A stretch of DNA of 28,961 nt from a virus. Under the pieces are notes generated by a model. The model searched no databases and had not been told where the DNA came from. It saw only the letters and a list, made by a program, of their open reading frames with translations. Both the position numbers and the translations under genes were made by a program. Shown here one piece after another: positions 3,475 through 28,961 of this stretch (position 1 is the stretch's first letter; each line of letters begins with the position of its first letter). The DNA is taken from positions 1 to 28,961 of the IMG/VR virus record IMGVR_UViG_3300042691_016530; one strand, written 5' to 3'.

Positions 3475-6400
3475 ATGGCATTAACGTGGATCCCAGAGTC
3501 CGGCTATAGTTATAGCTTAGGAACAATCAATGAAAGACAAACAGTAAGTATAGCACTACCTGTAAGCTCTAGCGTTGGCATAACTTTTCAAAAGATAACC
3601 GGAAAGATACCGCCAGGTATGCGTATTCAAGGCAGCAACTTAGTAGGAACGCCTTACGAAATACCTAGAACAACAGAATTTAAATTTGTCATTAGAGCAA
3701 GCAGTAGTAGTGAATTTGCGGACAGAACTTTTACAATTACAGTAGTTGGTTCAGATGAACCTAATTGGTTAACACCTGCTGGCGCATTGCCTATTGGTGC
3801 CAATGACGCATATTATATATTAGACAGCAGCTATATTGATTTTCAATTGGTTGCCACAGATACCGATACGTCTACAGGACAACAACTTAAATTCTTCATT
3901 GCCAGCGACGAAGGCGAATTGCCACCTGGTTTAATTTTAACAGAAAGCGGAAGAATCACAGGCTTTGTTCAGCCGTTACTATCTATTCCTTTAAACGCAG
4001 GTGAAGGACCTTTTGATACAGATTTGTACGACAACGTAGCATACGACTTTGGCTATAGAAGCACCAACGGGTATGACACGTATGTGTTCGATTTAACTGT
4101 GTTCGACTTTAGTGTACCAACTGGTAGACCAAGGAAACTAAATCGAAATTACGAATTTATAGCAACAGTTACAGATGGAGACAGCGTAACCAAGCGAAAG
4201 TTTAGAATTTTCGTAGTGGGCGATGACTTCTTTAGAAGTGATAACGTTATTGAAACTGCGGGTACAGGTGCGTATACTGCAGATGTATCCTATGTACGTG
4301 CTCCTATATTCACAACACCGCAGTATCTTGGATTGCGAAGAGCCAATAATTATCAAACATTCAAAATAGATATTTACGAAGGCTTTAGCGAACTAGGTCC
4401 TGTAATATATGATTTTTCAGACATTAACGCACTAATTAGTGCTATCTGTATAAGAGAAACTGCCAATGACAACAGACTTGGGCAAAGCGTAGTTAGAATC
4501 GAGCGGGCTGATGGCGTGCCACAAGTAGGATATAAATTTTCATTCAACGGAGAATTTACAGGCGCTACTGAAGAAATTTATACTATTACAGATGTTGATG
4601 TGCTCGGCGGAGACATTTATCGACTAACTGTTAGCCCTGCTCTAGAAGTTACAGTAGTTAACGGTAGTGCTGTGTTCATAGGCACTGAAAGTACCTTACC
4701 AACAGGTATGATATTTGACCAAACTACCGGAGAAGTATTCGGTACTGTACCTTATCAACCTGCTATTACAATAACACATCAATTTACTATTAAGGCTATT
4801 AGATTCGGTCAGGGTTCGGAACAAGCAGTAAGTCGTCGAGTATTTACTGTAGATATTTTAGGCGAAGTAGAAAGTGTCATGAACTGGACTAGCCCTGAGA
4901 ATCTAGGCACCATTGACAGCGGCTACGTTAGTACACTTAGCATAGTTGCCACTAGTACCTTTAAAGAATCTGCTATCCTTTATACGCTAGAAGATGGCAA
5001 ACTACCGCCTGGGCTAACTTTAAATCTCGACGGTGAAGTAGTGGGTAAGGTAAATCAACTTACTAATCAAATACGTTATAGAAGTTTATGGAAACCGAGT
5101 ACTAGCTACCAAACAAATACCGTTGTTAAACAAAACAACATACGAGGAATTAAGTCGTTAACAAGACGACGCAATGTAGCAACAGTAGTTACAAGTTTAG
5201 ATCATAATTTTGTCACCGGCGATTTAGTGGAAATTGTTAGCGACGATTTAAATTTTAACTATTACGATGCAGTTAGTGTTACTATTGCTCCTATTGAATT
5301 AACTGGTTCAACTTCAACAACATCCGATAATGTGTATACTAACATATCAGGTGTAAGTGTGGCTGCGGCTGGTACATATACAAACGTTGCCAGCGTGGCT
5401 GTTACAGGGGGCGGCACTGGAGCAACATTTACCGTAATTAAACGTAGTAGCTTAACAGGATACAATAGTGTAACCACAATTAAAATAGTAAACGCTGGCT
5501 CAGGATATAGTACAGGCGATCAAATTAAAATATTAGGAAGTTTGCTAGGCGGAGTGAGTCCTGCAAATGATTTAACATTTACCATGAGTGAATCTGTTAA
5601 AGTAGCATTTACAATTCCTACACAAAAATTAACTCCGCTAGCACCAGTGTTTACTTTAGTAAAAGGAACTAGTAACGGTGCAGCACCGTTTGTTTATAAC
5701 GATGTGCCTGCTGCTTCAACAACGGGCAGCGGAACCGGCGCACGATTCAAAGTAGAAAAAGGCTTTAACGGAAGCACAAATTACACTGGACTAGTCACAG
5801 TAATCTTAGTTGATCCAGGCTTTGGCTACCTTCCTGGAGATAGGATAACAATCGGCGGCGCTCATCTCGGTGGCGCTGATGTCGTTAACGATTTAACATT
5901 TACTACATCTACAGGTTTAGAATTTTGGTATAGAATTAACGGCAATAGTAATAGCAAGTATAACGGCAGATATTTTGCCACAACCTCTAACTCAAGTACA
6001 ATTACCTTAAATTATTACGCTACACCTGGAACATTTGGCAGTGGATTGATTAGTGTTGAGACGACGCCAGGCGTTTACGCAGGTCAAACTTTGATTATTC
6101 CATTAAATTATTTTAATTATCCAAATAAGGGTACTAGCATAGGAATGAAGCCGGCATCGGGTACGACATATAATTTACCTACATTTTATAAATGTATTAC
6201 TGCCCACACTAGCAGCCCATTGTTCGATACAGATCTTACAAAATGGAGTGTATATAAATTTCCAGAAAGTGATAAAACACTTACCACGTTCGATAGTGTC
6301 AACCTAAGTTTAGATTCAGGCGATACTACACTAGATAGAAGTTATACATTTACTATTCGTGCTAGGGACCAATTGGGGTATAGTGCTATAACTAGAACCT

Positions 6401-7281
6401 TTACGTTAATTGTTAATACACCTAACAATACCTATTACAGCAATCTAACAGCAAAACCGTTCTTGAAATTAAATCAGAGATCATTATTTCGAGATTTTAT
6501 AACCGACGGTGAAGTATTTGATCAGTCAGTAATATACCGTCCATCAGATCCTTATTTTGGCATACAAACTGATTTAAAAATGTTAGTATACGCAGGAATT
6601 GAAACCAAACAGGCTGTGGAGTATGTCAGTGCTATGGGTCGAAATCACAAGATAAAACGATTTCATTTCGGTGAACTTAAAAAGGCCGTGGCAAAGATAC
6701 CAGGCACAAATACTGTAGTATATGAAATTATCTATGTAGAAATGTTAGATCCTTTAGAAAAAGGAAAAGATCATTTACCTTCAACTATCAAATATAGTAA
6801 AAGCAATATAGACATAACAGTGGATCAAAACAATGAGTTCTATGTTGGGCCAGATTTTAGTAAAGATACGGCGTTTTGGAATCGCCCAATCCCATTTAAT
6901 GTAACATTAGATAGGAACGATGTGTTTGCTGGAGATCCTGGAACCGGAATTAGATTCCCTAGCAGTATTAGCTTATGGCGTTACAGGATTCAAAATATGG
7001 AAAATACTGCCAGCGAGCGCAACTATTTGCCATTATGGATGCGCAGTATTCAGCCTGGCGAAACTACGGAAATCAACTATGTAGCAGCCGTTCCCTTGTG
7101 CTATTGTAAGCCCGGTGGAGCAGACACTATTTTGCTAAACATTGAAAATTACATAAAAACTACATCATTTGATTTTAAGAATTTAGATTACACCATAGAC
7201 AGATACACCATAGATTCTGTTACCGGTGAATATACAGATAAATATCTAGTATTTAGAAACGATAGGACCACAATAACATGA
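3475..7281 (+). CDS. Ig-like (He_PIG) tail/baseplate-associated structural protein
   Basis: This is a 1268-residue protein. The N-terminal half contains at least four putative Ig-like modules recognisable by the He_PIG signature, for example IPPGMRIQGSNLVGTP near residue 43, LPPGLILTESGRITG, LPTGMIFDQTTGEVFG and LPPGLTLNLDGEVVG. The middle carries two copies of a GTGA...GYxxGDxIxI..LGG..NDLTFT module at residues 645-703 and 751-810. The last ~300 residues (from about 970, KPFLKLNQRSLFRDF) resemble a conserved C-terminal module of large structural proteins in cyanophage and pelagiphage myoviruses, recalled rather than searched. It has a good Shine-Dalgarno (CGGAGCTGAAATG) and overlaps the next gene by ATGA. 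Likely role, by inference: an extended tail or baseplate adhesin. A whisker or fibre connector is an alternative. Confidence 0.75.
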   Translation: MALTWIPESGYSYSLGTINERQTVSIALPVSSSVGITFQKITGKIPPGMRIQGSNLVGTPYEIPRTTEFKFVIRASSSSEFADRTFTITVVGSDEPNWLTPAGALPIGANDAYYILDSSYIDFQLVATDTDTSTGQQLKFFIASDEGELPPGLILTESGRITGFVQPLLSIPLNAGEGPFDTDLYDNVAYDFGYRSTNGYDTYVFDLTVFDFSVPTGRPRKLNRNYEFIATVTDGDSVTKRKFRIFVVGDDFFRSDNVIETAGTGAYTADVSYVRAPIFTTPQYLGLRRANNYQTFKIDIYEGFSELGPVIYDFSDINALISAICIRETANDNRLGQSVVRIERADGVPQVGYKFSFNGEFTGATEEIYTITDVDVLGGDIYRLTVSPALEVTVVNGSAVFIGTESTLPTGMIFDQTTGEVFGTVPYQPAITITHQFTIKAIRFGQGSEQAVSRRVFTVDILGEVESVMNWTSPENLGTIDSGYVSTLSIVATSTFKESAILYTLEDGKLPPGLTLNLDGEVVGKVNQLTNQIRYRSLWKPSTSYQTNTVVKQNNIRGIKSLTRRRNVATVVTSLDHNFVTGDLVEIVSDDLNFNYYDAVSVTIAPIELTGSTSTTSDNVYTNISGVSVAAAGTYTNVASVAVTGGGTGATFTVIKRSSLTGYNSVTTIKIVNAGSGYSTGDQIKILGSLLGGVSPANDLTFTMSESVKVAFTIPTQKLTPLAPVFTLVKGTSNGAAPFVYNDVPAASTTGSGTGARFKVEKGFNGSTNYTGLVTVILVDPGFGYLPGDRITIGGAHLGGADVVNDLTFTTSTGLEFWYRINGNSNSKYNGRYFATTSNSSTITLNYYATPGTFGSGLISVETTPGVYAGQTLIIPLNYFNYPNKGTSIGMKPASGTTYNLPTFYKCITAHTSSPLFDTDLTKWSVYKFPESDKTLTTFDSVNLSLDSGDTTLDRSYTFTIRARDQLGYSAITRTFTLIVNTPNNTYYSNLTAKPFLKLNQRSLFRDFITDGEVFDQSVIYRPSDPYFGIQTDLKMLVYAGIETKQAVEYVSAMGRNHKIKRFHFGELKKAVAKIPGTNTVVYEIIYVEMLDPLEKGKDHLPSTIKYSKSNIDITVDQNNEFYVGPDFSKDTAFWNRPIPFNVTLDRNDVFAGDPGTGIRFPSSISLWRYRIQNMENTASERNYLPLWMRSIQPGETTEINYVAAVPLCYCKPGGADTILLNIENYIKTTSFDFKNLDYTIDRYTIDSVTGEYTDKYLVFRNDRTTIT
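5407..5583 (+). repeat. Internal protein module repeat, copy A
   Basis: Copy A encodes about 59 residues (645-703 of the Ig-like structural protein) with the pattern GTGATF near its start and GSGYSTGDQIKI then LGG and NDLTFT at its end. It matches copy B at 5725-5904, starting 318 bases downstream. The match is at the protein level. Confidence 0.7.
5725..5904 (+). repeat. Internal protein module repeat, copy B
   Basis: Copy B encodes about 60 residues (751-810) with GTGARF near its start and GFGYLPGDRITI then LGG and NDLTFT at its end. It is a paralogous beta module to copy A at 5407-5583. Such modules are common in phage fibres and can expand or contract. Confidence 0.7.
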
Positions 7282-8912
7282 CCAGCGCAATAGTATCAGC
7301 TACCATCGACGCAGATTTTCCTGTAGCCGGAGTAGATAACGACAGTCAAGGATTCAGAGATAACTTTAGCATTATTAGGGATGGCTTGGCCACCGCAAAT
7401 GCCGAGATTACAGAATTACAGACTAACACCGCCAAACTCAATGACGATAACGATTTCAACGGAAATGTTATCTCTAACGCAGTAACCAACCAATTGTATG
7501 GTAGTGTTTATACAACTACTAGTACTCCTACTACTAATGTAAGTTTAACAGATGGCGAATACCAGGTGATCACACTATCTGGAAACCACACACTAACATT
7601 CAAAGACTGGCCTGAAACAGATTTGTATGGAAAAATTCGTTTAGAATTAAAAAGCGATGGCACTGAGCGTACTATAACATTTAGCACAGAGTCAGGCGGC
7701 GTAGTACGCAAAGAAATTAGTTCTGTGTTAATTGAAGCTAGTAATGCGTCGAGAACTGCTAGCAGTGTTGCTACCACAAATACAACCATTAGTTTTCCAA
7801 CAGCAAATATTAATGTTATTGGAACTAGTTCGGGCGCAGGTGTATTCCAAGTGGCAGATAGAATATTCGGTACAGGACTCACCGGCGATGTATCAATTAG
7901 TTCTATTACAAATTTAACTAGTACTGCTAGTGCTACTACTCCACCAAATACACTAACTTATACAACTATAACTAGTGCTGGAGTCGTAACGTGTTCTAGT
8001 CCAGCAACTTCAATAACAACTGGTACTAAGGTACAGTTAAGTGATAATACAAACATTACAGGTCTGTCTACAACCGAAACTTACTATGCTTACGGAGCAA
8101 CTGGTAGTCAGTTTAATCTAGCATCTAGTTTGGCTAATGCTACAGCTGGTACACCAGTTAGTGGGCTAACAGGCACAGTGGCGTACACTAGTATTACAGT
8201 AGGTGCCACTGTTAAAGTTATTACTACCGGAGCAGGCAGTATTCCAGCTGGAAACACCGTTGTGTTAACAGATACTGGAGGATTAACAGGATTAACTCCT
8301 AGCCCAACAGTATACTACGCCTACGGTGCTGATAGTACAGGTGTATATCTTGCCGCAAGTTACGCTGATGCAACTGCTGGTACTCCGGTACCTATTAGTT
8401 CAGCAACTGGTACATACACTGGTGTAGCTAGTACTTTTGTACATAACTCCGGTTTTTCAGGAACAGCAACAGCAACATTCCCTGAACTAGATCCAAGCAG
8501 CAATAGATTAACTGTTAGCACATCAACGGGCATGTTTGTAGGTATGCCAATTAAATTTACAGGAACAGGATTTGGCGGCGTTAGTTCGGGAACAGATTAT
8601 TTTGTAACTAAAGTAATCGATAGCACTGGTATTAGAATTTCTACTACATTAGGCGGCGCACCTGTTACATTAACTACAGCATCAGGAACTTTAACTATGG
8701 TTCCCCGTACGGTACTAGGAACAACATTTAGCAGTCAAGTAGTGTCATCTGTAGACGGTGTAGCATCCACGCTAACACTAACAACTTCCGATGTAACCTT
8801 CCCAACTCCATTTACAGTAAATGCCGATCCAACTAAAATACGAATAGTAGAGGCGTGGACTTCAAATGGCGGTGTAACTGTTTACATGAAATATTTAGGT
8901 GAGTACGCATGA
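7278..8912 (+). CDS. Tail-fibre-like beta-repeat structural protein
   Basis: A 544-residue protein whose start overlaps the preceding gene by ATGA. The N-terminus (FPVAGVDNDSQGFRDNF, then a short helix rich in Ala/Glu/Asn) resembles the start of a recurrent class of T4-like marine phage fibre-like proteins. It is rich in Thr, Ser and Gly throughout. Three related modules are visible, at about residues 236-301, 310-385 and 403-474; the first two share TYYAYG/VYYAYG followed by ATAGTPV, and the third has a GxPIKFTGTGFGG ... DYFVTKV version. The C-terminus (VEAWTSNGGVTVYMKYLGEYA) is a compact end typical of phage tail-fibre-like proteins. Inference: a trimeric fibre or baseplate appendage working with the 1268-residue protein. 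No enzymatic motif is seen. Confidence 0.7.
   Translation: MTSAIVSATIDADFPVAGVDNDSQGFRDNFSIIRDGLATANAEITELQTNTAKLNDDNDFNGNVISNAVTNQLYGSVYTTTSTPTTNVSLTDGEYQVITLSGNHTLTFKDWPETDLYGKIRLELKSDGTERTITFSTESGGVVRKEISSVLIEASNASRTASSVATTNTTISFPTANINVIGTSSGAGVFQVADRIFGTGLTGDVSISSITNLTSTASATTPPNTLTYTTITSAGVVTCSSPATSITTGTKVQLSDNTNITGLSTTETYYAYGATGSQFNLASSLANATAGTPVSGLTGTVAYTSITVGATVKVITTGAGSIPAGNTVVLTDTGGLTGLTPSPTVYYAYGADSTGVYLAASYADATAGTPVPISSATGTYTGVASTFVHNSGFSGTATATFPELDPSSNRLTVSTSTGMFVGMPIKFTGTGFGGVSSGTDYFVTKVIDSTGIRISTTLGGAPVTLTTASGTLTMVPRTVLGTTFSSQVVSSVDGVASTLTLTTSDVTFPTPFTVNADPTKIRIVEAWTSNGGVTVYMKYLGEYA
7983..8700 (+). repeat. Three degenerate beta-module repeats within the fibre-like protein
   Basis: Approximate unit starts are 7983, 8205 and 8484. 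Units 1 and 2 share the order: entry strand, V-x-LxD near the middle, YYAYG, then ATAGTPV. Unit 3 keeps the length and the G-x-x-V/I-x-F/L pattern but has diverged. Boundaries are approximate and based on protein similarity only. Confidence 0.55.
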
Positions 8913-9142
8913 TACATCCATTAGCAGAAGATTTTAGCACACTAAAAGATACCGAAGTTGAAGAAAAACTTCAAGAGCTAAGTAGAAAATATTGGCAAGC
9001 TAACAACCCTTCGGTAAAGCAACAAATTGCTATTTTTATCGATTTGTATAAAACAGAGCTCAGTATGCGCCGTGCTAGACAATGGGACCAAACTTATCAA
9101 AAGAGAGATAAAGACCTTGACAATTTGATCAAAGTCAGTTAA
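8909..9142 (+). CDS. Small charged protein of unknown function
   Basis: 77 residues, starting in an ATGA overlap with the fibre-like gene and therefore probably co-translated with it. The protein is almost all helical and highly charged, with a central NNPSVKQQIAIFIDLYKTEL segment and a basic RRARQW patch. I recall similar short proteins next to structural genes in marine T4-like phages, but no function is known to me. It could be a chaperone or small structural partner of the fibre; this rests on position only. Confidence 0.65.
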   Translation: MIHPLAEDFSTLKDTEVEEKLQELSRKYWQANNPSVKQQIAIFIDLYKTELSMRRARQWDQTYQKRDKDLDNLIKVS

Positions 9143-9145
9143 ACT
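9117..9145 (+). promoter_or_regulatory. Candidate sigma70-like promoter ahead of the DnaE-like fragment gene
   Basis: A perfect TTGACA (9117-9122, inside the end of the previous gene) is followed by a 17-base spacer and TAAACT (9140-9145, four of six matches to TATAAT). The ATG at 9152 is seven bases after the -10, and no Shine-Dalgarno is visible. The geometry matches the stronger promoters at 10678 and 18596. The weak -10 keeps confidence low. Confidence 0.35.
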
Positions 9146-9151
9146 AGTGGC

Positions 9152-9652
9152 ATGCAATATGACCAACTAGGCAATGTAATCTATCAAGAAAAAGATATAT
9201 TTGATTTAATATACTCTAATAAGGTAGATTACCTTCCAGAAATCCTGATAGAAAAAACAACTAGCACACAACAGCTAGAAACTCACGCTGAACTAAACTT
9301 AAAATTGTTTGAGCAATTGGATGTCGATCAAACACAATTTGACGCAATGTGCCAGACTGATTGGTTTATGCCCGACGAATATCGAAATATGGATATAGAA
9401 GGATTTCTAGTAAACCAATGTCCTAAACAAAATTACCAACGGCTTATAGAAGAATTACAAGAATTTCGATCAAGAAATATGATAGATATTCTACGTGTAC
9501 TTAAATATGTAGTAGATACATTACGTGATAAAAATGTATTATGGGGAGTGGGCAGGGGAAGTAGTGTAGCCAGTTATGCGCTATTTTTAATAGGCGTACA
9601 CAAAATCGACAGTGTTAAATACGATTTAGACTGGCGAGAATTTTTAAGATAA
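9152..9652 (+). CDS. DNA polymerase III alpha (DnaE) palm-like fragment protein
   Basis: 166 residues. The last ~75 residues resemble the part of bacterial DnaE that precedes the catalytic aspartates: an amphipathic helix pair (NYQRLIEELQEF...), then WGVGRGSSVASYALFLIG, which matches the DnaE block GPGRGSxAGSLVAYxLxI, then the I-D-x-x-x-Y-D-L...FL block. In real DnaE this is followed at once by NPER..PDxDxDF, which holds two catalytic Asp residues. Here the protein stops at WREFLR, so these residues, the PHP domain, fingers and tau-binding parts are all missing. It therefore cannot be a polymerase by itself. Inference: a domesticated palm fragment, perhaps binding DNA, dNTP or a replisome partner. 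The N-terminal half is unrecognised. No Shine-Dalgarno. Confidence 0.7.
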   Translation: MQYDQLGNVIYQEKDIFDLIYSNKVDYLPEILIEKTTSTQQLETHAELNLKLFEQLDVDQTQFDAMCQTDWFMPDEYRNMDIEGFLVNQCPKQNYQRLIEELQEFRSRNMIDILRVLKYVVDTLRDKNVLWGVGRGSSVASYALFLIGVHKIDSVKYDLDWREFLR

Positions 9653-9677
9653 GTACATATATAACAGGAGAGCTATT

Positions 9678-9887
9678 ATGGCGCAAAGACAAACTTATAG
9701 AACTATGCAAGGTAAAGAAATTGACCTTGATAAATTACGCAACAGAAATGAAACTGTTCTTGCTGTGGGTAATGCCCGAGTAAATGCCCGTGGTGACGAA
9801 ATTGGTCCGGGTGGCAAAATTATTCGTAAGCGTGAAGATGTTATGGCAGAATACTACACTGGCCGTCCACAGCCCAAAGACGAATAA
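9678..9887 (+). CDS. Small conserved phage protein, unknown function
   Basis: 69 residues, with a strong Shine-Dalgarno (CAGGAGAG). The protein is polar and basic, with GKEIDLDKLRNRNET near the start, a glycine/proline turn GPGGKIIRKRED in the middle and a disordered acidic/proline tail. I recall similar proteins in marine T4-like phages with no assigned role. No catalytic motif or membrane segment. It sits between the DnaE-like fragment and the co-chaperonin gene, with a 9-base gap to the latter. Confidence 0.7.
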   Translation: MAQRQTYRTMQGKEIDLDKLRNRNETVLAVGNARVNARGDEIGPGGKIIRKREDVMAEYYTGRPQPKDE

Positions 9888-9896
9888 GAGGCTTAC

Positions 9897-10280
9897 ATGA
9901 ATGTTGTAAAAGGAAAACTGAGACCGTTACGTGATAATGTATTGGTAACAGATATGAGTTTTGAAGAACAGACTACAGCTAGTGGTATTGTTATTCAAAG
10001 TGACGATGGTAAAAGTCACGGAATTAAACCTAGGTGGGCCCGTGTATGGGCAATAGGTCCAGAACAAAAAGATGTACAAGTAGGTGAATGGATTTGTATC
10101 GAACATGGTAGATGGACTCGAGGCGTTAAAATAGACGACAACGGTGTAGAGATTGTTATTAGGCGTGTTGAGCCTGTTTCAATTATGCTTCAAGCAGATG
10201 AAAAACCTAATGATTTGTACATTGGCGAAGAATTTAATTCTAGCCCAACTAGCAATATTAAACCAGACGACTTCCTATGA
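9897..10280 (+). CDS. groES: GroES-like co-chaperonin (T4 gp31-type functional analogue)
   Basis: 127 residues. The start KLRPLRDNVLV matches the first strand of GroES, and TASGIVIQ at about 27-34 matches the mobile loop whose hydrophobic tripeptide (IVL in E. coli, IVI here) docks on GroEL. GDxI/GEWICIEHGRW then gives the second half of the beta barrel. The family caps GroEL; T4 gp31 and related phage co-chaperonins replace GroES so that the capsid protein can fold. About 30 extra C-terminal residues, polar and probably disordered, extend beyond the normal GroES length of about 97. It overlaps the next gene by ATGA. Fold assignment is good; the requirement for capsid folding is inferred from the T4 case. 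Confidence 0.85.
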   Translation: MNVVKGKLRPLRDNVLVTDMSFEEQTTASGIVIQSDDGKSHGIKPRWARVWAIGPEQKDVQVGEWICIEHGRWTRGVKIDDNGVEIVIRRVEPVSIMLQADEKPNDLYIGEEFNSSPTSNIKPDDFL

Positions 10281-22825: not shown

Positions 22826-22862
22826 TCCCCTATTTCGATAAATACACGAGATAGGGGATTTC
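22826..22862 (+). terminator. Terminator-type hairpin with a late promoter in its loop
   Basis: TCCCCTAT (22826-22833) pairs with ATAGGGGA (22851-22858), and the stem extends inward through one T-G wobble to G37/C47, giving 12 bp with a nine-base loop ATAAATACA. A TTTCTT tract follows. It lies just after the stop at 22820 and so can end the dnaJ operon. Confidence 0.75.
22836..22844 (+). promoter_or_regulatory. Putative T4-like late promoter (CGATAAATA) inside the hairpin
   Basis: The 9-mer CGATAAATA, identical to those at 14420 and 27816, occupies the top of the terminator stem and its loop. The predicted start at about 22851 lies at the beginning of the 3' arm, so the late transcript would not carry the whole hairpin. 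It would serve the block starting at 22904. Confidence 0.6.
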
Positions 22863-22903: not shown

Positions 22904-23245
22904 ATGGAAATTAACGATTTATTACCCGCAGATTCTGAAAAGAAACAATTAGGCTACGATCTTAAAGATGATCTTGTTTGCTTTATGCAAAACGACCCTA
23001 AGTTCTATCGTAAAGAGTACTTTCCTGTAATGTACAGATTTAAAGAATATGTAGAATCAGGAAAATCAGTCCACCCAAGAGCATTCGAAGGTCTTGTTAA
23101 AAAAGCCTATGAATCATATCAAAGTACTTTTAAAGTGGAAGGTCTAGAACCTGCTCTGGAAAAAGACATGTGCGAAGGCATATGTAATGCGTTACATGAG
23201 CAAGAAACAAAAAATATAGAAGACGGTCATTACGACGAGAAATAA
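22904..23245 (+). CDS. Small acidic protein of unknown function
   Basis: 113 residues with no recognised domain. Helical and acidic; features are a segment DPKFYRKEYFPVMYRFKEYV near residue 31 and a C-terminal EKDMCEGICNALHEQE helix. No Shine-Dalgarno is seen upstream, in contrast to most genes here. It begins the late block and is followed after one base by the nucleotidyltransferase fusion. I recall similar proteins in marine T4-like phages but no function. Confidence 0.68.
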   Translation: MEINDLLPADSEKKQLGYDLKDDLVCFMQNDPKFYRKEYFPVMYRFKEYVESGKSVHPRAFEGLVKKAYESYQSTFKVEGLEPALEKDMCEGICNALHEQETKNIEDGHYDEK

Positions 23246-23246
23246 A

Positions 23247-24782
23247 ATGAATTTAAGAGAATTATTCGAATCCCGTAGTAGTGATGTAGCTATCATTTTT
23301 GGTAGGTTTAATCCGCCTCACTTCGGTCACGCAGGTGCTTGGAAAGTGGCGTCAAACTTCGACAACTGGTATGTAGGCACGAATCAAAGCACACAAGGTC
23401 CTAAAGATCCGTTACCATTCAATATGAAAATAGCAGCTATGAAAACTGTCATGCCTGAACTAGAAGGGCATGTAGTTGCTGAACAAAGTTGGCTAACTTT
23501 AGCAGTTATGGTATACAAAAAGTTTGGAGAATCTGTATCATTACACGTTGTAACAGACCCTAAAGATGCTAAAGTTTTTGTTCCGTTATTACAGGATCAA
23601 AACGGCAAAGAAGGCCCGCACGGATATTACAAATTTAAATCAGTCGAGTGGGCAAAGGCAGACCGTTCTAGTGAAGCAACTCTAGTAAGAAATTCAATTA
23701 GAGAAAATAATCCTAAAGATTTTGAAAAATATGCCGGAGTTCCTCCCGATACATTAGTTGCCGGAGTTCCATATTTTAATCTTGTTAGAAAATATATGCT
23801 ACCTTATATGGAGGCAGAAGAAGCTAAAGCTCGCGCTGACAAAGAAAGAGAACAAGCAAAGGCAGACAAAGCTAGATTAAAAGCAGAAAAAGATGCCGCC
23901 AAGTTAGATAAGAAAAAAATTAAGCAACCCGACACTCAAGGTATGGCAGAGGATGCTGAACCAGTAGATCGTGAATTTCATCTAGTTAAGAAATTAGGCA
24001 GACTCGGCGAACGCATTGCACAAAATCCAAAACTTTGGGACAAGTATTCTGAAGCTATCGATAATGACGATTCCGATTGGGTTGTTAGTCTAATACAAGA
24101 AGGAACCGGTGCTACGTATAAAGAGGTATTACATCTCAGCGACCTATTTGGTGAAATAGGAGGCGGCTTGGGACGCATTGTAGATTTTGCGTGGGCTGTT
24201 AAAGAAGGTACATGGGAAGAAGATTTCTTGAATCCGTATAGACAGTATAGGAAACAGGCAATGCAAGAATTTGCGCCAGCCGGTGGTGGTAATCCGCCAC
24301 GTGGTCCTAAAAATAAAGGACGGGATCCATGGGACGATGACAGCGGAGAGGATCCATATAGTCGTCCTGAACCAGAATACTATAATCGTAGCATAGATTT
24401 CTTTGGACGATTTGAAGCAGATCATTTTGACGATGAAGTCTTTAATGAGAAAACTGGTGTGTTTAAAGGTTATTGGGACGACGAAGAAGGCAGAATACAG
24501 ATTGCTTATTTTAAATTCGACGATCCAGAAAACGTCGGTAGCGATGATCCAGGCATGGGCTGGTATTATGAACCACAAAATGAGAGTGTGGCGGAGACTG
24601 CTCGAATGAGTGCTGCTGCCAAACTAAGTAAAGCATGGGACAGACAACAGGCTAAAAGTGCGGCAAGTCGTAAGCGTGGACAGGAATTATTAAATCCTCC
24701 TAAAAAAGAAGAGCCTAAGACACAGCAACCAGTTAGTGAAAAGTTTCACATATTCAAAAGATTTAAAAAGACAAGGAAATAA
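23247..24782 (+). CDS. HxGH nucleotidyltransferase fused to a long charged phage domain
   Basis: 511 residues. Residues ~12-190 are a nucleotidyltransferase domain: GRFNPPHFGH (19-28, HFGH 25-28) binds the nucleotide alpha-phosphate, and RSSEATLVRNSI corresponds to the second motif ISSTxxR. This resembles NMN adenylyltransferase/cytidylyltransferase folds. A charged helix of about 35 residues (EEAKARADKEREQAKADKAR) follows, then an acidic, probably helical domain, a Gly/Pro/Asp-rich disordered section and a basic C-terminus (HIFKRFKKTRK). The N-terminal peptide MNLRELFE, then Ser, resembles a T4 capsid-targeting sequence with an LxE cleavage site. Possible roles, inferred: a virion-packaged, injected nucleotidyl- or NAD-metabolism enzyme. 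Substrate unknown. Confidence 0.8.
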   Translation: MNLRELFESRSSDVAIIFGRFNPPHFGHAGAWKVASNFDNWYVGTNQSTQGPKDPLPFNMKIAAMKTVMPELEGHVVAEQSWLTLAVMVYKKFGESVSLHVVTDPKDAKVFVPLLQDQNGKEGPHGYYKFKSVEWAKADRSSEATLVRNSIRENNPKDFEKYAGVPPDTLVAGVPYFNLVRKYMLPYMEAEEAKARADKEREQAKADKARLKAEKDAAKLDKKKIKQPDTQGMAEDAEPVDREFHLVKKLGRLGERIAQNPKLWDKYSEAIDNDDSDWVVSLIQEGTGATYKEVLHLSDLFGEIGGGLGRIVDFAWAVKEGTWEEDFLNPYRQYRKQAMQEFAPAGGGNPPRGPKNKGRDPWDDDSGEDPYSRPEPEYYNRSIDFFGRFEADHFDDEVFNEKTGVFKGYWDDEEGRIQIAYFKFDDPENVGSDDPGMGWYYEPQNESVAETARMSAAAKLSKAWDRQQAKSAASRKRGQELLNPPKKEEPKTQQPVSEKFHIFKRFKKTRK

Positions 24783-24784
24783 TA

Positions 24785-25219
24785 ATGGATGAATTACAAA
24801 AGGCAACTAAGATAGCGTTTGCCAGCGAATTTAGCTTTTTCTTAAAAGCACAAAACTTTCATTGGAATGTTGAAGGAATGTTTTTTGAATCGTTTCATTC
24901 GTTGTTTGGAAGAATCTACGAAGAAGTGTATGGCAGTATTGATACGTTTGCCGAACAACTAAGAGCATTAGGCACTTACGCACCGGCTAGTCTACAACGA
25001 TTTAGTATGCTAACACAAATAGATGATGAAACAGAAATCTTAGATAGCAAACAAATGGTTATTGAATTACTAAACGATAACGAAAAATTAGTTAAAATTT
25101 TAAAGATGGTATTCGATCTAAGCGAACAAATGGGTGAACATGGATTTAGTGATTTTATTGCCGGTAGAATGGACGCACATCGTAAACACGGTTGGATGTT
25201 AAAGGCCACACTAAAATGA
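24785..25219 (+). CDS. dps: Dps-family ferritin-like protein
   Basis: 144 residues. The Dps core FLKAQNFHWNVEGMFFESFH and SIDTFAEQLRALG is clear. Gapless alignment with E. coli Dps puts His in NFHWNV (E. coli His51), His in ESFHSLF (His63), Asp in SIDTF (Asp78) and Glu in AEQL (Glu82) in place, but the position of ferroxidase ligand Asp67 is Gly (HSLFG). The N-terminal tail is short, lacking the Lys-rich DNA-binding extension of E. coli Dps. Dps dodecamers store iron and protect DNA from peroxide. Shine-Dalgarno AAGGA. It lies among putative virion genes and overlaps the next gene by ATGA. Role by inference: iron/peroxide protection of phage DNA or iron scavenging. Confidence 0.88.
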   Translation: MDELQKATKIAFASEFSFFLKAQNFHWNVEGMFFESFHSLFGRIYEEVYGSIDTFAEQLRALGTYAPASLQRFSMLTQIDDETEILDSKQMVIELLNDNEKLVKILKMVFDLSEQMGEHGFSDFIAGRMDAHRKHGWMLKATLK

Positions 25220-25512
25220 AGCAGTACAAGGTCACTAGCTATGACTTAAATCAAGATAGTCCAGATGACTGCTATCTCGATCCTGCTGACCCTATACAAG
25301 AACTTAAAGTATTATCGGGGCTCGGTGGTTTAGGCGGCGCAGCTAGACTACACGAATATCGTGGACAACAAGTTAGTTACGGCGAAACATTTGGACAAAG
25401 CGGCAGTGAAAAAGCTGAAATAATGCGTAAGAATAATATCAGGCCAGGTGATGCTGAATGGTTTAAGTTATGGTTTAGTTTGCCCTATATGACTGGGGAG
25501 AAACCCCAATGA
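25216..25512 (+). CDS. Small protein of unknown function
   Basis: 98 residues from the ATG at 25216 (ATGA overlap with dps); a TTG eight codons upstream is rejected. Strand-poor, Gly-rich in the middle (LSGLGGLGGAARLHEYRG), with DAEWFKLWFSLPYMTGE near the end. A similar type of short protein accompanies virion-like genes in marine phages, in my recollection. The four-base overlap with the metalloprotease gene suggests coupled translation. Function unknown. Confidence 0.68.
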   Translation: MKQYKVTSYDLNQDSPDDCYLDPADPIQELKVLSGLGGLGGAARLHEYRGQQVSYGETFGQSGSEKAEIMRKNNIRPGDAEWFKLWFSLPYMTGEKPQ

Positions 25513-26951
25513 AAGCTCACCAGATTGTAGACGAACACAAAAAAGGTGTACGAGCCAAGAAATATAATAAAAAACCCAAAGCCTACATTACTCCTAAGAA
25601 ACCTTTAGCAGGTCCAGGACAAGGTGGTAGCTATGGCGCTGACGCAGGATATAGTGGAGTGTCCGAAGATACAAATACTCAACCACAGTTAATGACTGCA
25701 TTTACAAAATTTTTACCGTTGGTCATGCATGCACTGGCATTAAAAAAGTTGCCTAAAATCAAATTAGAAACAATCATTATAGATCATGAGCAACCTACTT
25801 TTGGAAAATACGATGACGGTGAACAAATAATCTATCTAGCTATAGAAAACAGACACGCATTGGATATATTAAGAACACTGGCGCACGAGCTGATACACTT
25901 TAAACAAAATACCGAACACAGACTGGATATCAATAGCGGTGGCACTGGCAGTGAGATAGAGAACGAAGCAAATGCCCAAGCTGCCATAATAATGAGACAC
26001 TTCAATAAAAAGTATCCAGAATTTTTTAAAGACAGTGCTGTTGACTTGGAAGAGTTTGACCAAAATCAGTCTTTAGAAGAGCGTAAGAAGAAACGCCGAG
26101 TTCGACAGGCCGCATACGGACCTGGTCTGTATGGTGGATATGGATACTATGCCGGCTATAGTGGCGACAGCGGAACCAGTGACGGTGGTGGAGATGGAGG
26201 CGAAAGTGTACATGAACTGTTCGATGGCGGTAAAGATTGGAAGTGGACTTATCAAGACAAGAATCAAGCCATGGCAGAATTCACTGTGGGTGATGTACAC
26301 TATACATTTTCAGCTGGACAAGATCCAGATGAAGCACCCGGCGATTGGGACATTGAGTTTGCGGCTAAAAAAGAAGCAGGCACAGCAAGTTGGGGCGTAA
26401 CTGGTACTGGTAATTCAGCACAGGTATTTGGCACTGTGGTTGAAATTATGAAGGCCTTTATCACAAGTAAAAAAGCTTCTATACGTAGAATGACATTTGC
26501 CGCTAAAGAAGATTCAAGGCAGGGTCTTTATGCACGTATGGTCAAGAGACTGTTGCCCAAATGGAACTTGGAACAAAATGGCGAAGCATTCGTATTAACT
26601 CGCCCTGGCGGACTAGCATTTTGGGTCTACAGCGTGGAAGCACCATATAACAAAATACCACCAGTAAAAGTCAAAGCCAATACAGCAAGTGAAGCAGAAC
26701 AAATTGTGTTAACAACAATGCCTGAGTTTAAAGGTGCTGACCTAATGGGAATGGGCGCCAGTAAAAATAAACCTGACCTAAGCGAGAACTTTGCTGATGG
26801 TCGTAACCCACAAGATAAGGGTGACAGCAAACGTCACGGAGTTCCAACCAAAGCTAGCATAAGTACATTACGCAAGGTTGCCAAGCAAGGTGGCAGAAAA
26901 GGTCAACTGGCACACTGGATGGCCAATATGAAATCAGGGAGAAAAAAATGA
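25509..26951 (+). CDS. HExxH metalloprotease-like multidomain phage protein
   Basis: 480 residues. After a basic, Gly-rich N-terminal 55 residues comes a compact zinc-protease-like domain (about 60-170): LAHELIHFKQN with HELIH at 126-130, and ENEANAQA at 151-158 giving a candidate third ligand Glu (gluzincin-like). A Tyr/Gly-rich linker (200-235) leads to a domain at about 240-385 with an SRQGLYARMVKRLLPKW segment, of unknown function. The C-terminus (HGVPTKASISTLRKVAKQ, GRKGQLAHWMANMKSG) is a basic block that I recall at the end of other phage virion-type proteins. N-terminal MKAHQIVDE resembles the other capsid-targeting-like peptides here. Inference: a packaged protease. Enzyme activity is untested. 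Confidence 0.7.
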   Translation: MKAHQIVDEHKKGVRAKKYNKKPKAYITPKKPLAGPGQGGSYGADAGYSGVSEDTNTQPQLMTAFTKFLPLVMHALALKKLPKIKLETIIIDHEQPTFGKYDDGEQIIYLAIENRHALDILRTLAHELIHFKQNTEHRLDINSGGTGSEIENEANAQAAIIMRHFNKKYPEFFKDSAVDLEEFDQNQSLEERKKKRRVRQAAYGPGLYGGYGYYAGYSGDSGTSDGGGDGGESVHELFDGGKDWKWTYQDKNQAMAEFTVGDVHYTFSAGQDPDEAPGDWDIEFAAKKEAGTASWGVTGTGNSAQVFGTVVEIMKAFITSKKASIRRMTFAAKEDSRQGLYARMVKRLLPKWNLEQNGEAFVLTRPGGLAFWVYSVEAPYNKIPPVKVKANTASEAEQIVLTTMPEFKGADLMGMGASKNKPDLSENFADGRNPQDKGDSKRHGVPTKASISTLRKVAKQGGRKGQLAHWMANMKSGRKK

Positions 26952-27580
26952 GTTTTGAATTTGAATTTACACCAGCTAAATTAGCAGAGTGTATCCATAA
27001 AAATAAAAACCCACAAATGTGGTATGAAGCATTTGCGGAACATTTTCCAGCATTTGAAATTACAACACCTGCTCGCGTAGCAGGATTTATCGCACAATGT
27101 CAACACGAAAGTTTAGACTTTACTGTACTACAAGAAAATCTAAATTACGGCGCTAAGGGTCTACGTGGATTGTTCGGTAAGTATTTTCCAACAGATGCTT
27201 TAGCTCAACAATACGAACGCAAGCCTGAAATGATTGCCAATCGCATCTACGCAAATCGCATGGCCAACGGAAACGAACAAAGCGGCGACGGTTGGAAGTT
27301 TAGAGGGCGTGGAATACTACAAATTACAGGGCGTGATAATTATACACGTTGCAGCAGAGAACTATTCGGCGATGATTGTTTGGTAGAGGATCCAGATTTA
27401 CTAAGACAACCAGCTTATGCCACACTAAGTGCCTGCTGGTTCTGGCACAAGAATGGTCTTAACGCTATTTGCGATAAGGGCGACATTGTATTGTTGTCAA
27501 AGCGTATCAACGGTGGAACTATCGGACTAGAAGATCGTATTCATCACTGGAATATAGCATTAGATTTATTCGAGTCTTGA
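26948..27580 (+). CDS. GH19 chitinase-like endolysin
   Basis: 210 residues. The glycoside hydrolase 19 motifs are visible: AQCQHESLDF with catalytic Glu54 and LQENLNY with Glu63 as the second acid, FRGRGILQITGRDNY (118-132) and INGG near 188. The enzyme cleaves the sugar backbone of peptidoglycan and is the likely endolysin of this phage. No signal peptide is present, so it needs a holin, and the three-TM holin-like protein at 18005 is the obvious candidate, although it is more than 8 kb away. ATGA overlap with the metalloprotease gene; Shine-Dalgarno GGGAG. A virion-associated lysin for DNA entry is an alternative. Confidence 0.9.
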   Translation: MSFEFEFTPAKLAECIHKNKNPQMWYEAFAEHFPAFEITTPARVAGFIAQCQHESLDFTVLQENLNYGAKGLRGLFGKYFPTDALAQQYERKPEMIANRIYANRMANGNEQSGDGWKFRGRGILQITGRDNYTRCSRELFGDDCLVEDPDLLRQPAYATLSACWFWHKNGLNAICDKGDIVLLSKRINGGTIGLEDRIHHWNIALDLFES

Positions 27581-27581
27581 T

Positions 27582-27821
27582 ATGAAAATACGTGAAATAA
27601 CCATGAAAGAAAGTGCTACAGCAGGAGCCACAAGTACTGCTAACATAGGTACAGTGGTAAATCCACACATTAGCCCAGGGCCAGCCCGTGGCAAAAGAAG
27701 CTATATAGGAAGCCCCGGAAAAAGCGGCACAAAGGCGCCGCCGCAACCCAAGGTAAAAGCAGTTGATCCCAGCAAGGCTACAGGTGTTAGTTTGTTCGGC
27801 GGACCTGCAATAAAACGATAA
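27582..27821 (+). CDS. Small basic Gly/Pro-rich virion-type protein
   Basis: 79 residues. It starts MKIREITMKE, like the two other capsid-targeting-like peptides here, followed by TSTANIGTVVNPHISPGPAR, RSYIGSPGKSGTKAPPQPK and a final FGGPAIKR. The chain is basic, without hydrophobic core, so probably disordered. I recall close relatives in several cyanophages and pelagiphages, annotated only as hypothetical. One base separates its start from the endolysin stop. Possible internal virion protein by analogy with T4 internal proteins; this is inference. Confidence 0.72.
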   Translation: MKIREITMKESATAGATSTANIGTVVNPHISPGPARGKRSYIGSPGKSGTKAPPQPKVKAVDPSKATGVSLFGGPAIKR

Positions 27822-27824
27822 ATA
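27816..27824 (+). promoter_or_regulatory. Putative T4-like late promoter (CGATAAATA)
   Basis: The third copy of CGATAAATA, overlapping the stop codon of the small basic protein and 20 bases before the ATG at 27845. A Shine-Dalgarno (ACGGAG) follows. Same 9-mer as at 14420 and 22836. Confidence 0.6.
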
Positions 27825-27844: not shown

Positions 27845-28961
27845 ATGCCAGGAATGAATATGATGAATCACCCTCATCCAGATGATCAAGAAGCCGCAAT
27901 GGCCCGTGCCGATCTTTATAAGATGGCCAACTATAGCTTCAAGCTATTTAAAATGATCAAAGACGGTGACCAACTAGAAGGTTGGGTACAAGCTAAAGTT
28001 ACTAAAGCAGCTGACTATATTGCCAGCGTTTATCACTATATGGAATACGAAATGAAATTTAGTGAGTATGGCAATAAAATTGAAAATGCTGACATGTACA
28101 CCGAAGCAGTACGCACAGAATTCAAAAAGAAATTGAATGAAGCTAAAGTTAAGTTAGAAAAATTAAAAGAAAAAAATCAAAAAGATTTAGACGAAGTTTT
28201 TAGTTCTGACGACAAAGTAGGTTCTGAAAAGAAAACCCGTACAGGTGTAGCAACAAAAACTAGTACTGGTTTAGTTCATAAGAATACTAGTTATAAAGAC
28301 GGCGAAGACGAGATTGCCACAAATGCTAAATCAGGCAAGGGCAAAGCAAGCCATGCTAAGGGAAAATCAGCTGCTGAAAAGAAATCACAAGCTCCAAAAC
28401 TAAAGCAAAGTCCAAAGAGTGCTAAGACTTGGGGCATGAAGGATAACGAAAAATTTGACAATAGAGATAAAGAAGTGAAAGAAGGCATGGCTCCTAGTTC
28501 ACCTGACGGAGCAACAGCTCCTCCGCCAAAGGGCAAAGACGGCCAGTATCCTGTTGTAACATCAGGACCACACAAAGGCAAGCGTTGGAGTCCTAAAACT
28601 CCTGGCCCAACTAATCCTGCAATGAAAGAAGCTGTCAAATCTAAAAAGGGAGACGGCAATCTAGCTAACAATGCTAAACCTTACGATAAAGTAACACAAG
28701 GTGATGTTGTTGCTGGTCGTTTAGGCAAAGACGAAAAAGGCGGTAAGGATAAAAAAGTTAAAGAAACAGCAATAAGTGGTGCACCACAAAAATCTGGAAT
28801 TCCGGCAACCGCAAAAACTACAGTACCAGGAATGCGAGCCACACCACAAGATCTAAAGAAAGCAGGCGCAAGTGCGGCACTTGGCGAAGGCAAATGTAAT
28901 CACACTGCCAAAGGTAAGTCATGCCCAGTACACGGTATGAAAGAATGTGGTAGTATGTATG
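27845..28961 (+). CDS. Virion-type structural protein, 3' end outside the window
   Basis: The frame from the ATG at 27845 is open to the last base, giving at least 372 residues. Shine-Dalgarno ACGGAG and late promoter upstream. Residues ~15-125 form a charged helical domain (ARADLYKMANYSFKLFKM, LEGWVQAKVTKAADYI, YHYMEYEMKFSEYGNK) that I recall in structural proteins of marine T4-like phages. From ~125 the chain is very Lys/Gly/Ser/Pro-rich and probably disordered. Near the window edge a Cys/His cluster appears: C-N-H, then C-P-V-H-G-M-K-E-C, a possible small zinc site. The other frames in this region are shadows. Function not known; a head or core protein is a guess. Confidence 0.75.
   Translation, partial: MPGMNMMNHPHPDDQEAAMARADLYKMANYSFKLFKMIKDGDQLEGWVQAKVTKAADYIASVYHYMEYEMKFSEYGNKIENADMYTEAVRTEFKKKLNEAKVKLEKLKEKNQKDLDEVFSSDDKVGSEKKTRTGVATKTSTGLVHKNTSYKDGEDEIATNAKSGKGKASHAKGKSAAEKKSQAPKLKQSPKSAKTWGMKDNEKFDNRDKEVKEGMAPSSPDGATAPPPKGKDGQYPVVTSGPHKGKRWSPKTPGPTNPAMKEAVKSKKGDGNLANNAKPYDKVTQGDVVAGRLGKDEKGGKDKKVKETAISGAPQKSGIPATAKTTVPGMRATPQDLKKAGASAALGEGKCNHTAKGKSCPVHGMKECGSMY

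Follow-up and report, generated by a model that had tools for sequence, protein, structure and literature searches.

Candidate T4-type capsid-targeting propeptides on unrelated proteins of a jumbo-phage operon, and prohead-protease-like sites at the joints between protein modules

In bacteriophage T4, targeting by short N-terminal tags, the capsid-targeting sequences (CTS), and their processing by the protease gp21 are established (PMC3012670; PMC5694885). The T4 enzyme Alt is cut at ITE-6 and LTE-619, the second cut removing 63 C-terminal residues, and the role of its propeptides is open (PMC5694885). Phages phiKZ and SPN3US likewise process proteins after glutamate with a prohead protease and package ejection proteins (PMC5694885); the SPN3US propeptides are mostly longer than 100 residues and end in A-x-E, and the phiKZ protease belongs to MEROPS family S80. 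Here, we analyze three proteins encoded by a 28,961-base viral record (IMGVR_UViG_3300042691_016530; the window), a fragment of a T4-like jumbo phage, that begin with short peptides resembling the T4 CTS. Proteins are designated by their first base and a slash marks a predicted cut; positions in the window are listed in the table.

The tags of this clade are compared most readily with those of the T4 internal proteins and Alt, which are cut by gp21. In both cases, a short N-terminal peptide ending in hydrophobic-x-E precedes unrelated proteins, and the T4 peptide MKTYQEFIAE has close counterparts in relatives of the window (MRAQEFIAE, MRAREFISE). The core motif here is M[KR][ILVA]x[ED][ILVF], against MKT(Y/F)xEFI for the T4 CTS. 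As in T4, the relatives encode an S77 protease, a scaffold-like protein, and the capsid protein gp23. Unlike the T4 CTS, the tags precede numerous larger enzymes as well as polyproteins of up to 1,709 residues, and the same type of site recurs between modules. The long propeptides and A/S-x-E sites of the phiKZ/SPN3US type were not found: the peptides have 8–11 residues, the third residue before the cut (P3) is hydrophobic, giving [ILVMF]xE, and the protease of the relatives is of family S77. We file the system, which by its sequence would work like that of T4, as a variant rather than a proven member. What is new is its reach, i.e., the many enzyme families involved, the use of the same site to join mobile modules, and the polyproteins.

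The three window proteins start with MNLRELFE-S (23247), MKAHQIVDE-H (25509), and MKIREITMKE-S (27582), exactly as an earlier note on this DNA had reported. Each belongs to a family that keeps its tag. For 23247, the pattern M[LKRI]LR[EQH][LF]FE was found in most of 24 nucleotidyltransferase homologs, and the free nucleotidyltransferase of phage CBB has no tag and begins directly with the domain. Most homologs of the metalloprotease-like protein 25509 are likewise tagged (MRAKEFLAE, MKIRQLFES, MRAAQFLTEN); this protein is thus a full member of the set and not the loose fit that the note had taken it to be. Matches to 27582 were found at 242 loci in viral contigs. Among 51 homologs examined, the tag is mostly 8–11 residues long with a constant Glu at the junction, and the core motif was present in 44/45 homologs. 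The tags end in LFE, VDE, and MKE; by admitting V and M at P3, they extend the (I/L)xE rule of T4. The gp21-type sites proposed in the note were retained for 23247 (LFE) and, as regards the presence of a site, for 27582, although the latter is probably cut at MKE-10/S rather than at IRE-5. The three tags use differing codons (e.g., aga and cgt for Arg), so their likeness does not stem from recent copying of DNA.

To compare N-termini across the clade, we applied gene calling with a start rule blind to the motif to about 190 related loci and three genomes; all starts are our own calls. Clustering on residues 15 onward gave 1,225 families, of which 161 had at least four members. A family was counted as tagged when at least half of its members started with M[KRNH][ILVA]x[DEQ][ILVFM]. 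There were 23 tagged families among the 161, unrelated to one another, compared to a mean of 0.087 and a maximum of 1 when the pattern was sought at internal offsets 14–59. A profile made without any regular expression showed peaks of [ILVMF]xE with the Glu at residue 5 (0.072), 8 (0.052), and 9 (0.062), relative to 0.018 ± 0.004 elsewhere. With the first regular expressions, the enrichment within a single genome had been only modest (10 vs about 1 for the nearest relative, G001), and the core motif was settled after inspection of G001, G003, G005, and PA5oct; it occurs in 11 of the 425 G001 proteins. The internal-offset control and the regex-free profile are independent of that choice. As a positive control, a search with the T4 form of the motif recovered IPI and a 193-residue protein beginning with MKTYQEFIAE in T4. 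These results show that the shared peptides are real and not due to chance. Since the loci were picked for their likeness to the window proteins, the family counts describe this clade and not phages in general. Tagged proteins in the relatives include HAD phosphatase-like, GNAT-like, amidoligase, deaminase, and DUF6321 proteins, and their genes are scattered over several places in the genome. In PA5oct, three neighboring genes all start with a tag (MRLNEI, MKILEF, MKLSEI; NC_071039 260677–262300, locus L262).

The machinery expected of a T4-type head was found in the relatives. Relative loci lie on contigs of up to 383 kb, and three large relatives were read nearly whole, namely G001 (first 381 kb of 383), G003, and G005. 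The three genes recur in G001 with their order unchanged, at identities of 99% for 27582, 94% over the metalloprotease part of 25509, and about 60% for the nucleotidyltransferase. PF03420 (S77 protease, T4 gp21) and PF07068 (gp23) were above cut-off in 6/7 relatives searched, including G001. The head module of G001, G003, and G005 is of T4 type, with portal, a small protein, an acidic protein, protease, a scaffold-like coiled protein, and gp23. The small gene between portal and protease has the tag, intact or degenerate, at its start in these three genomes, PA5oct, and Vibrio phage 2.275.O. Among cultured phages, Phosso, Vibrio 2.275.O, PA5oct, and the group of CBB, GAP32, 121Q, and RaK2 are closest by gp23.

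One line of evidence for proteolysis comes from the joints between modules. In protein 23247, residues 13–223 form a nucleotidyltransferase domain with the NadD/NMNAT/PPAT fold, followed by a middle module (about 238–445), a C-terminal helix, and a basic tail. Protein 25509 comprises a HExxH metalloprotease-like domain (about 58–190) that Pfam does not name above cut-off, a middle module with a weak resemblance to GNAT proteins (about 245–405; Foldseek best 1.4e-3), and a C-terminal module that begins with NFADG (427–480). The NFADG module, also unrecognised by Pfam above cut-off, is a basic, mobile unit of 54 residues that occupies the C-terminus of dozens of unrelated proteins; elsewhere, it forms a protein of its own, preceded only by a tag (MRAREFISE/NFADG, MRINELLE/NFADG). 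Besides the window, it was seen at loci L054, L179, L180, L232, and L107. A tblastn search with 27582 and the NFADG module gave no match in named phages, possibly owing to low-complexity filtering. In non-redundant xxE/NFADG joints, a hydrophobic residue (I, L, V, M, or F) occupies P3 in 49/55 cases, compared to a background of 27% (p = 6e-22), while P2 and P4–P9 are at or near background. The same P3 rule holds for 8/9 joints of DUF6321 (PF19846), a Pfam module present on many phage proteins of varied length and absent from the three window proteins; here, it was also found immediately after a tag and after [ILVM]xE. An upstream module that terminates in TDPTYNVxE has five different sequences attached immediately C-terminal to its Glu (NFADG, AKKRK, GVLED, NALAE, ADASD). 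The 27582-type module, too, occurs inside or at the end of larger proteins after xxE with a hydrophobic P3 (GIRE/SATAG, NVAE/TATPG, DIAE/TATPG).

Gain and loss of modules between the window and G001 break at such sites as well (VAE/T, LEE/F, LSE/N). A module of ~200 residues in the window nucleotidyltransferase is absent from G001, its right edge reading SVAE/TARMS in place of DMSE/TARMS, and the metalloprotease protein differs by a ~240-residue module with edges VDLEE/FDQ and PDLSE/NFADG. In other relatives, polyproteins of 1,389–1,709 residues unite the NFADG module with nucleotidyltransferase, HExxH, and further domains (L094; L101 5093–10219; L106 6023–10189). The L094 protein (5192–10195; 1,668 residues) carries nucleotidyltransferase (weak Pfam match, 0.0036), HExxH, amidoligase (PF12224, 2.5e-7), cytidine deaminase (PF00383, 9e-11), and NFADG modules; the sites at its joints include MFLNE/DD, NVTE/AD, and ELPE/NF. 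T4 Alt offers a parallel as an enzyme with both an N-terminal and a C-terminal site, from which a 63-residue piece is removed, compared to the 54 residues of NFADG; by eye, the two sequences show no similarity, and NFADG is mobile among many proteins.

The small basic protein 27582 provides another line of evidence. Its post-tag sequence SATAGATSTANIGTV nearly equals that of the G001 gp23 following the expected gp21 cut, KYLAE/SASAGATSAGNVATL. The first residue after the cut agrees between the 27582 homolog and gp23 in G001 (S/S) and G005 (N/N), but differs in G003 (T/S). We scanned eight genomes for the protein that best matches the arm of their own gp23. In seven, i.e., G001, G003, G005, T4, CBB, Phosso, and Vibrio 2.275.O, this was a small protein headed by a short peptide, with weaker results for Phosso (40 vs 39) and G005 (41 vs 40) because of the small margin over the next match. 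In PA5oct, the best match was a segment behind KVEE in a 498-residue virion protein detected by mass spectrometry (MS). In T4, it was gp61.1, a 54-residue protein annotated as hypothetical (NC_000866 18966–19130, locus L325), for which a literature search returned no functional report. Like 27582, gp61.1 has a tag (MKTFKEFIKE), a stretch resembling the gp23 arm (ISIGTTSGAVVNKGP vs gp23 NIAAGQTSGAVTQIGP), and a basic tail; the likeness between the two is one of layout, each resembling its own gp23. T4 gp61.1 seems to be the counterpart of 27582 and may represent a processed internal protein, or one lining the shell, that has so far escaped notice. Moreover, since the predicted mature N-terminus of 27582 copies the gp23 N-arm, docking on the inner shell is more probable than action in the host, and the protein is more likely a capsid-associated arm mimic than an effector.

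Taken together, the peptides are probably T4-type capsid-targeting propeptides, a resemblance first suggested in the earlier note and now well supported by the tag across families, the S77 protease and gp23 of the relatives, the rule at joints, and the gp23-like sequence after the cut. Proteolysis is favored because of this gp23-arm match after the 27582 tag, the P3 rule at NFADG joints, and the module breakpoints at cut sites. In the corresponding model, the 8–11-residue tag would carry a protein into the prohead core, where the S77 prohead protease would cut after [I/L/V/M/F]xE and remove the tag. In multi-domain proteins, the protease might also cut linkers and so free modules within the head. 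The freed enzymes would remain with the DNA and some may be ejected; candidates are the NadD/NMNAT-like nucleotidyltransferase, the HExxH protease-like protein, and the GNAT-like module, with deaminase, amidoligase, and HAD phosphatase in relatives. Protein 27582 would be processed likewise and then use its gp23-like arm to dock on the inside of the shell. A broader form of this model can be advanced tentatively: the prohead-protease site would be a universal joint of a cassette system in which polyproteins of up to ~1,700 residues, each the product of one gene and containing nucleotidyltransferase, HExxH protease, amidoligase, cytidine deaminase, and NFADG modules, are packaged by a single tag and cut into effectors in the head before injection, accompanied by an ancient capsid-arm mimic represented by T4 gp61.1. 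If correct, jumbo-phage proteins of no known function would become predicted packaged cargo that can be read from tag and cut site, and phages could deliver several enzymes out of one polyprotein. The model further provides a testable hypothesis for gp61.1 and bears on why Alt has propeptides at both its N- and C-termini.

Virion data from cultured relatives are suggestive as to the presence of tagged proteins. In PA5oct, GenBank notes of 'ESI-MS/MS' cover a tagged small head-module protein (82921), tagged HExxH proteins (260677, 261410), and others; the relationship of these HExxH proteins to the window protein is remote at best (hhalign probability 35%). The refined motif was found in 7/93 detected proteins vs 1/272 others (p = 3.7e-4), but was refined after seeing PA5oct N-termini. 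For CBB, with detected virion proteins as listed in PMC5259590, sites at residues 7–11 were more frequent in detected proteins (14/52 vs 36/277; p = 0.012, uncorrected, five bins tested). About nine MS-detected CBB virion proteins, including kelch and laminin-like ones, share another N-terminus, MLPF.R[ML].EYGN, which resembles a docking-type tag (KU574722 344368–354701, 75120, 173132; L264, L266, L268).

Several observations weigh against the propeptide model. A profile trained on relatives alone identified 2/93 detected vs 3/272 other PA5oct proteins, which is not significant, and a rank test was negative, as was a generic site test among PA5oct virion proteins. The training families of this profile were chosen by an early regular expression, and the profile was blunt, given the badly called starts in training and its failure to find any T4 protein, making it a weak test in both directions. 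Given the post hoc motif and the lack of signal with the independent profile, we do not use the PA5oct enrichment as proof. The strict tag was present in 0/52 detected CBB virion proteins, and 3/9 TDPTYNV joints lack the spacing residue. In AlphaFold2 models (mean predicted local distance difference test score, pLDDT, of 74.8 for 23247 and 66.0 for 25509), low-confidence linkers between folded domains contain or adjoin the predicted sites 235, 450, and 498 of 23247 and 53, 236, 406, and 426 of 25509. There was no statistical excess, however: 3/15 and 4/9 sites lie near linkers, compared to 13/45 and 8/31 of all Glu, so that linker placement shows only that the predicted sites look accessible. 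Some xxE matches lie within folded domains and need not be cut. Finally, gp21 and gp23 are absent from the window, which does not reach the head-module region, and their presence in this phage is deduced from relatives; packaging, cutting, and ejection are inferred.

A possible though less favored explanation is that the peptides do target the capsid but that the cargo is structural or retained in the head, lining the shell, condensing DNA, or maturing the head, rather than being injected. The mimicry of the gp23 arm by 27582 and the tagged small protein within the head-assembly module fit this, and the NFADG and DUF6321 modules have no known function. Yet many tagged modules are enzyme-like without an obvious role in the head (nucleotidyltransferase, HExxH, GNAT, deaminase, amidoligase), and the T4 internal proteins and Alt, which bear such peptides, are ejected (PMC3012670, PMC5694885). 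It is unlikely that the shared N-terminus is instead a docking peptide for tail, baseplate, or outer shell. The MLPF.R[ML].EYGN sequence of CBB suggests that docking tags may exist in the clade, but a prohead protease, which is active inside the head, would account for both the [ILVMF]xE rule at joints within proteins and the gp23-like stretch that follows the cut. Most improbable, and largely refuted already, is a functionless pattern due to translation-start or composition constraints or to recombination at gene starts: the genes are small and shuffled and their modules recombine, but the same residues are encoded by different codons, the Glu stays at the junction while tag length varies, the rule also holds at internal joints far from starts, and internal offsets yield 0.09 families. 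A phage-nucleus import signal was set aside, as this clade, with its S77 protease and gp23, is of the T4/RaK2 type rather than the phiKZ type.

Table. Features of the operon in the window (a slash marks a predicted cut)
Feature	Position	Strand	Basis or remark
ATAAATA, T4-type late-promoter-like element, operon head	22838..22844	+	gene-upstream enrichment in relatives
113-residue protein MEINDLLPADSEK	22904..23245	+	family partly tagged
Tag MNLRELFE, predicted cut LFE-8/S	23247..23270	+	conserved in homologs
Tagged multi-domain protein 23247	23247..24782	+	phrog_3041 8.8e-13; Foldseek NadD/NMNAT best 9.4e-5
Glu-235, predicted site GMAE/DAEPV, joint after nucleotidyltransferase domain	23949..23951	+	low-pLDDT linker 226-237
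Glu-450, predicted site SVAE/TARMS, middle-module breakpoint	24594..24596	+	G001 has DMSE/TARMS
Glu-498, predicted site PVSE/KFHIF, before basic C-terminal tail	24738..24740	+	low-pLDDT 484-511
Ferritin/Dps-like protein, untagged, same operon	24785-25219		PF00210 1.8e-18
Tag MKAHQIVDE, predicted cut VDE-9/H	25509..25535	+	distant homologs keep M[KR][AI]xx[FL][ILV]xE
Tagged multi-domain protein 25509	25509..26951	+	HELIH; phrog_87 metallo-protease 0.0033; AlphaFold2 model
Glu-182 of VDLEE/FDQ, left breakpoint of middle module vs G001	26052..26054	+	predicted helix
Glu-426 of PDLSE/NFADG, junction of mobile C-terminal module	26784..26786	+	low-pLDDT 409-433
NFADG...RHGVPTKAS...AHWMANMKSGRKK module	26787..26948	+	found in fusion with numerous unrelated proteins or by itself after a tag
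GH19 endolysin, untagged, same block	26948		
Tag MKIREITMKE, predicted cut MKE-10/S	27582..27611	+	Glu kept at junction in homologs
79-residue basic protein 27582	27582..27821	+	post-tag SATAGATSTANIGTV resembles mature gp23 N-arm
Second ATAAATA, before gene 27845	27818..27824	+	same element
Lysine-rich open reading frame starting MPGMNMMNHPHPDDQEAAMARADLYKMANYSFKLFKMI	27845-28960		runs past window end

The tagged genes sit in a single, almost gap-free run on the + strand (22904–27821). ATAAATA occurs only four times in the window (7238, 14422, 22838, 27818), each time on the + strand, and lies upstream of 48 genes in G001 vs 2.2 expected (about 20-fold). The two copies that bracket the operon, together with this enrichment, make the description of its products as late proteins in the earlier note plausible. 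The block is not purely the set of ejected effectors proposed there, because untagged ferritin-like and GH19 endolysin genes lie inside it; 27582 looks more like a gp23-arm mimic than an effector. Of the 42 members in the family of 22904, the first gene of the run, 24 have the tag (e.g., MKIRELFENFSPK), but the sequence in the window has degenerated, with E at position 2 and no clear site. The Dps-like product of 24785 could also accompany packaged DNA.

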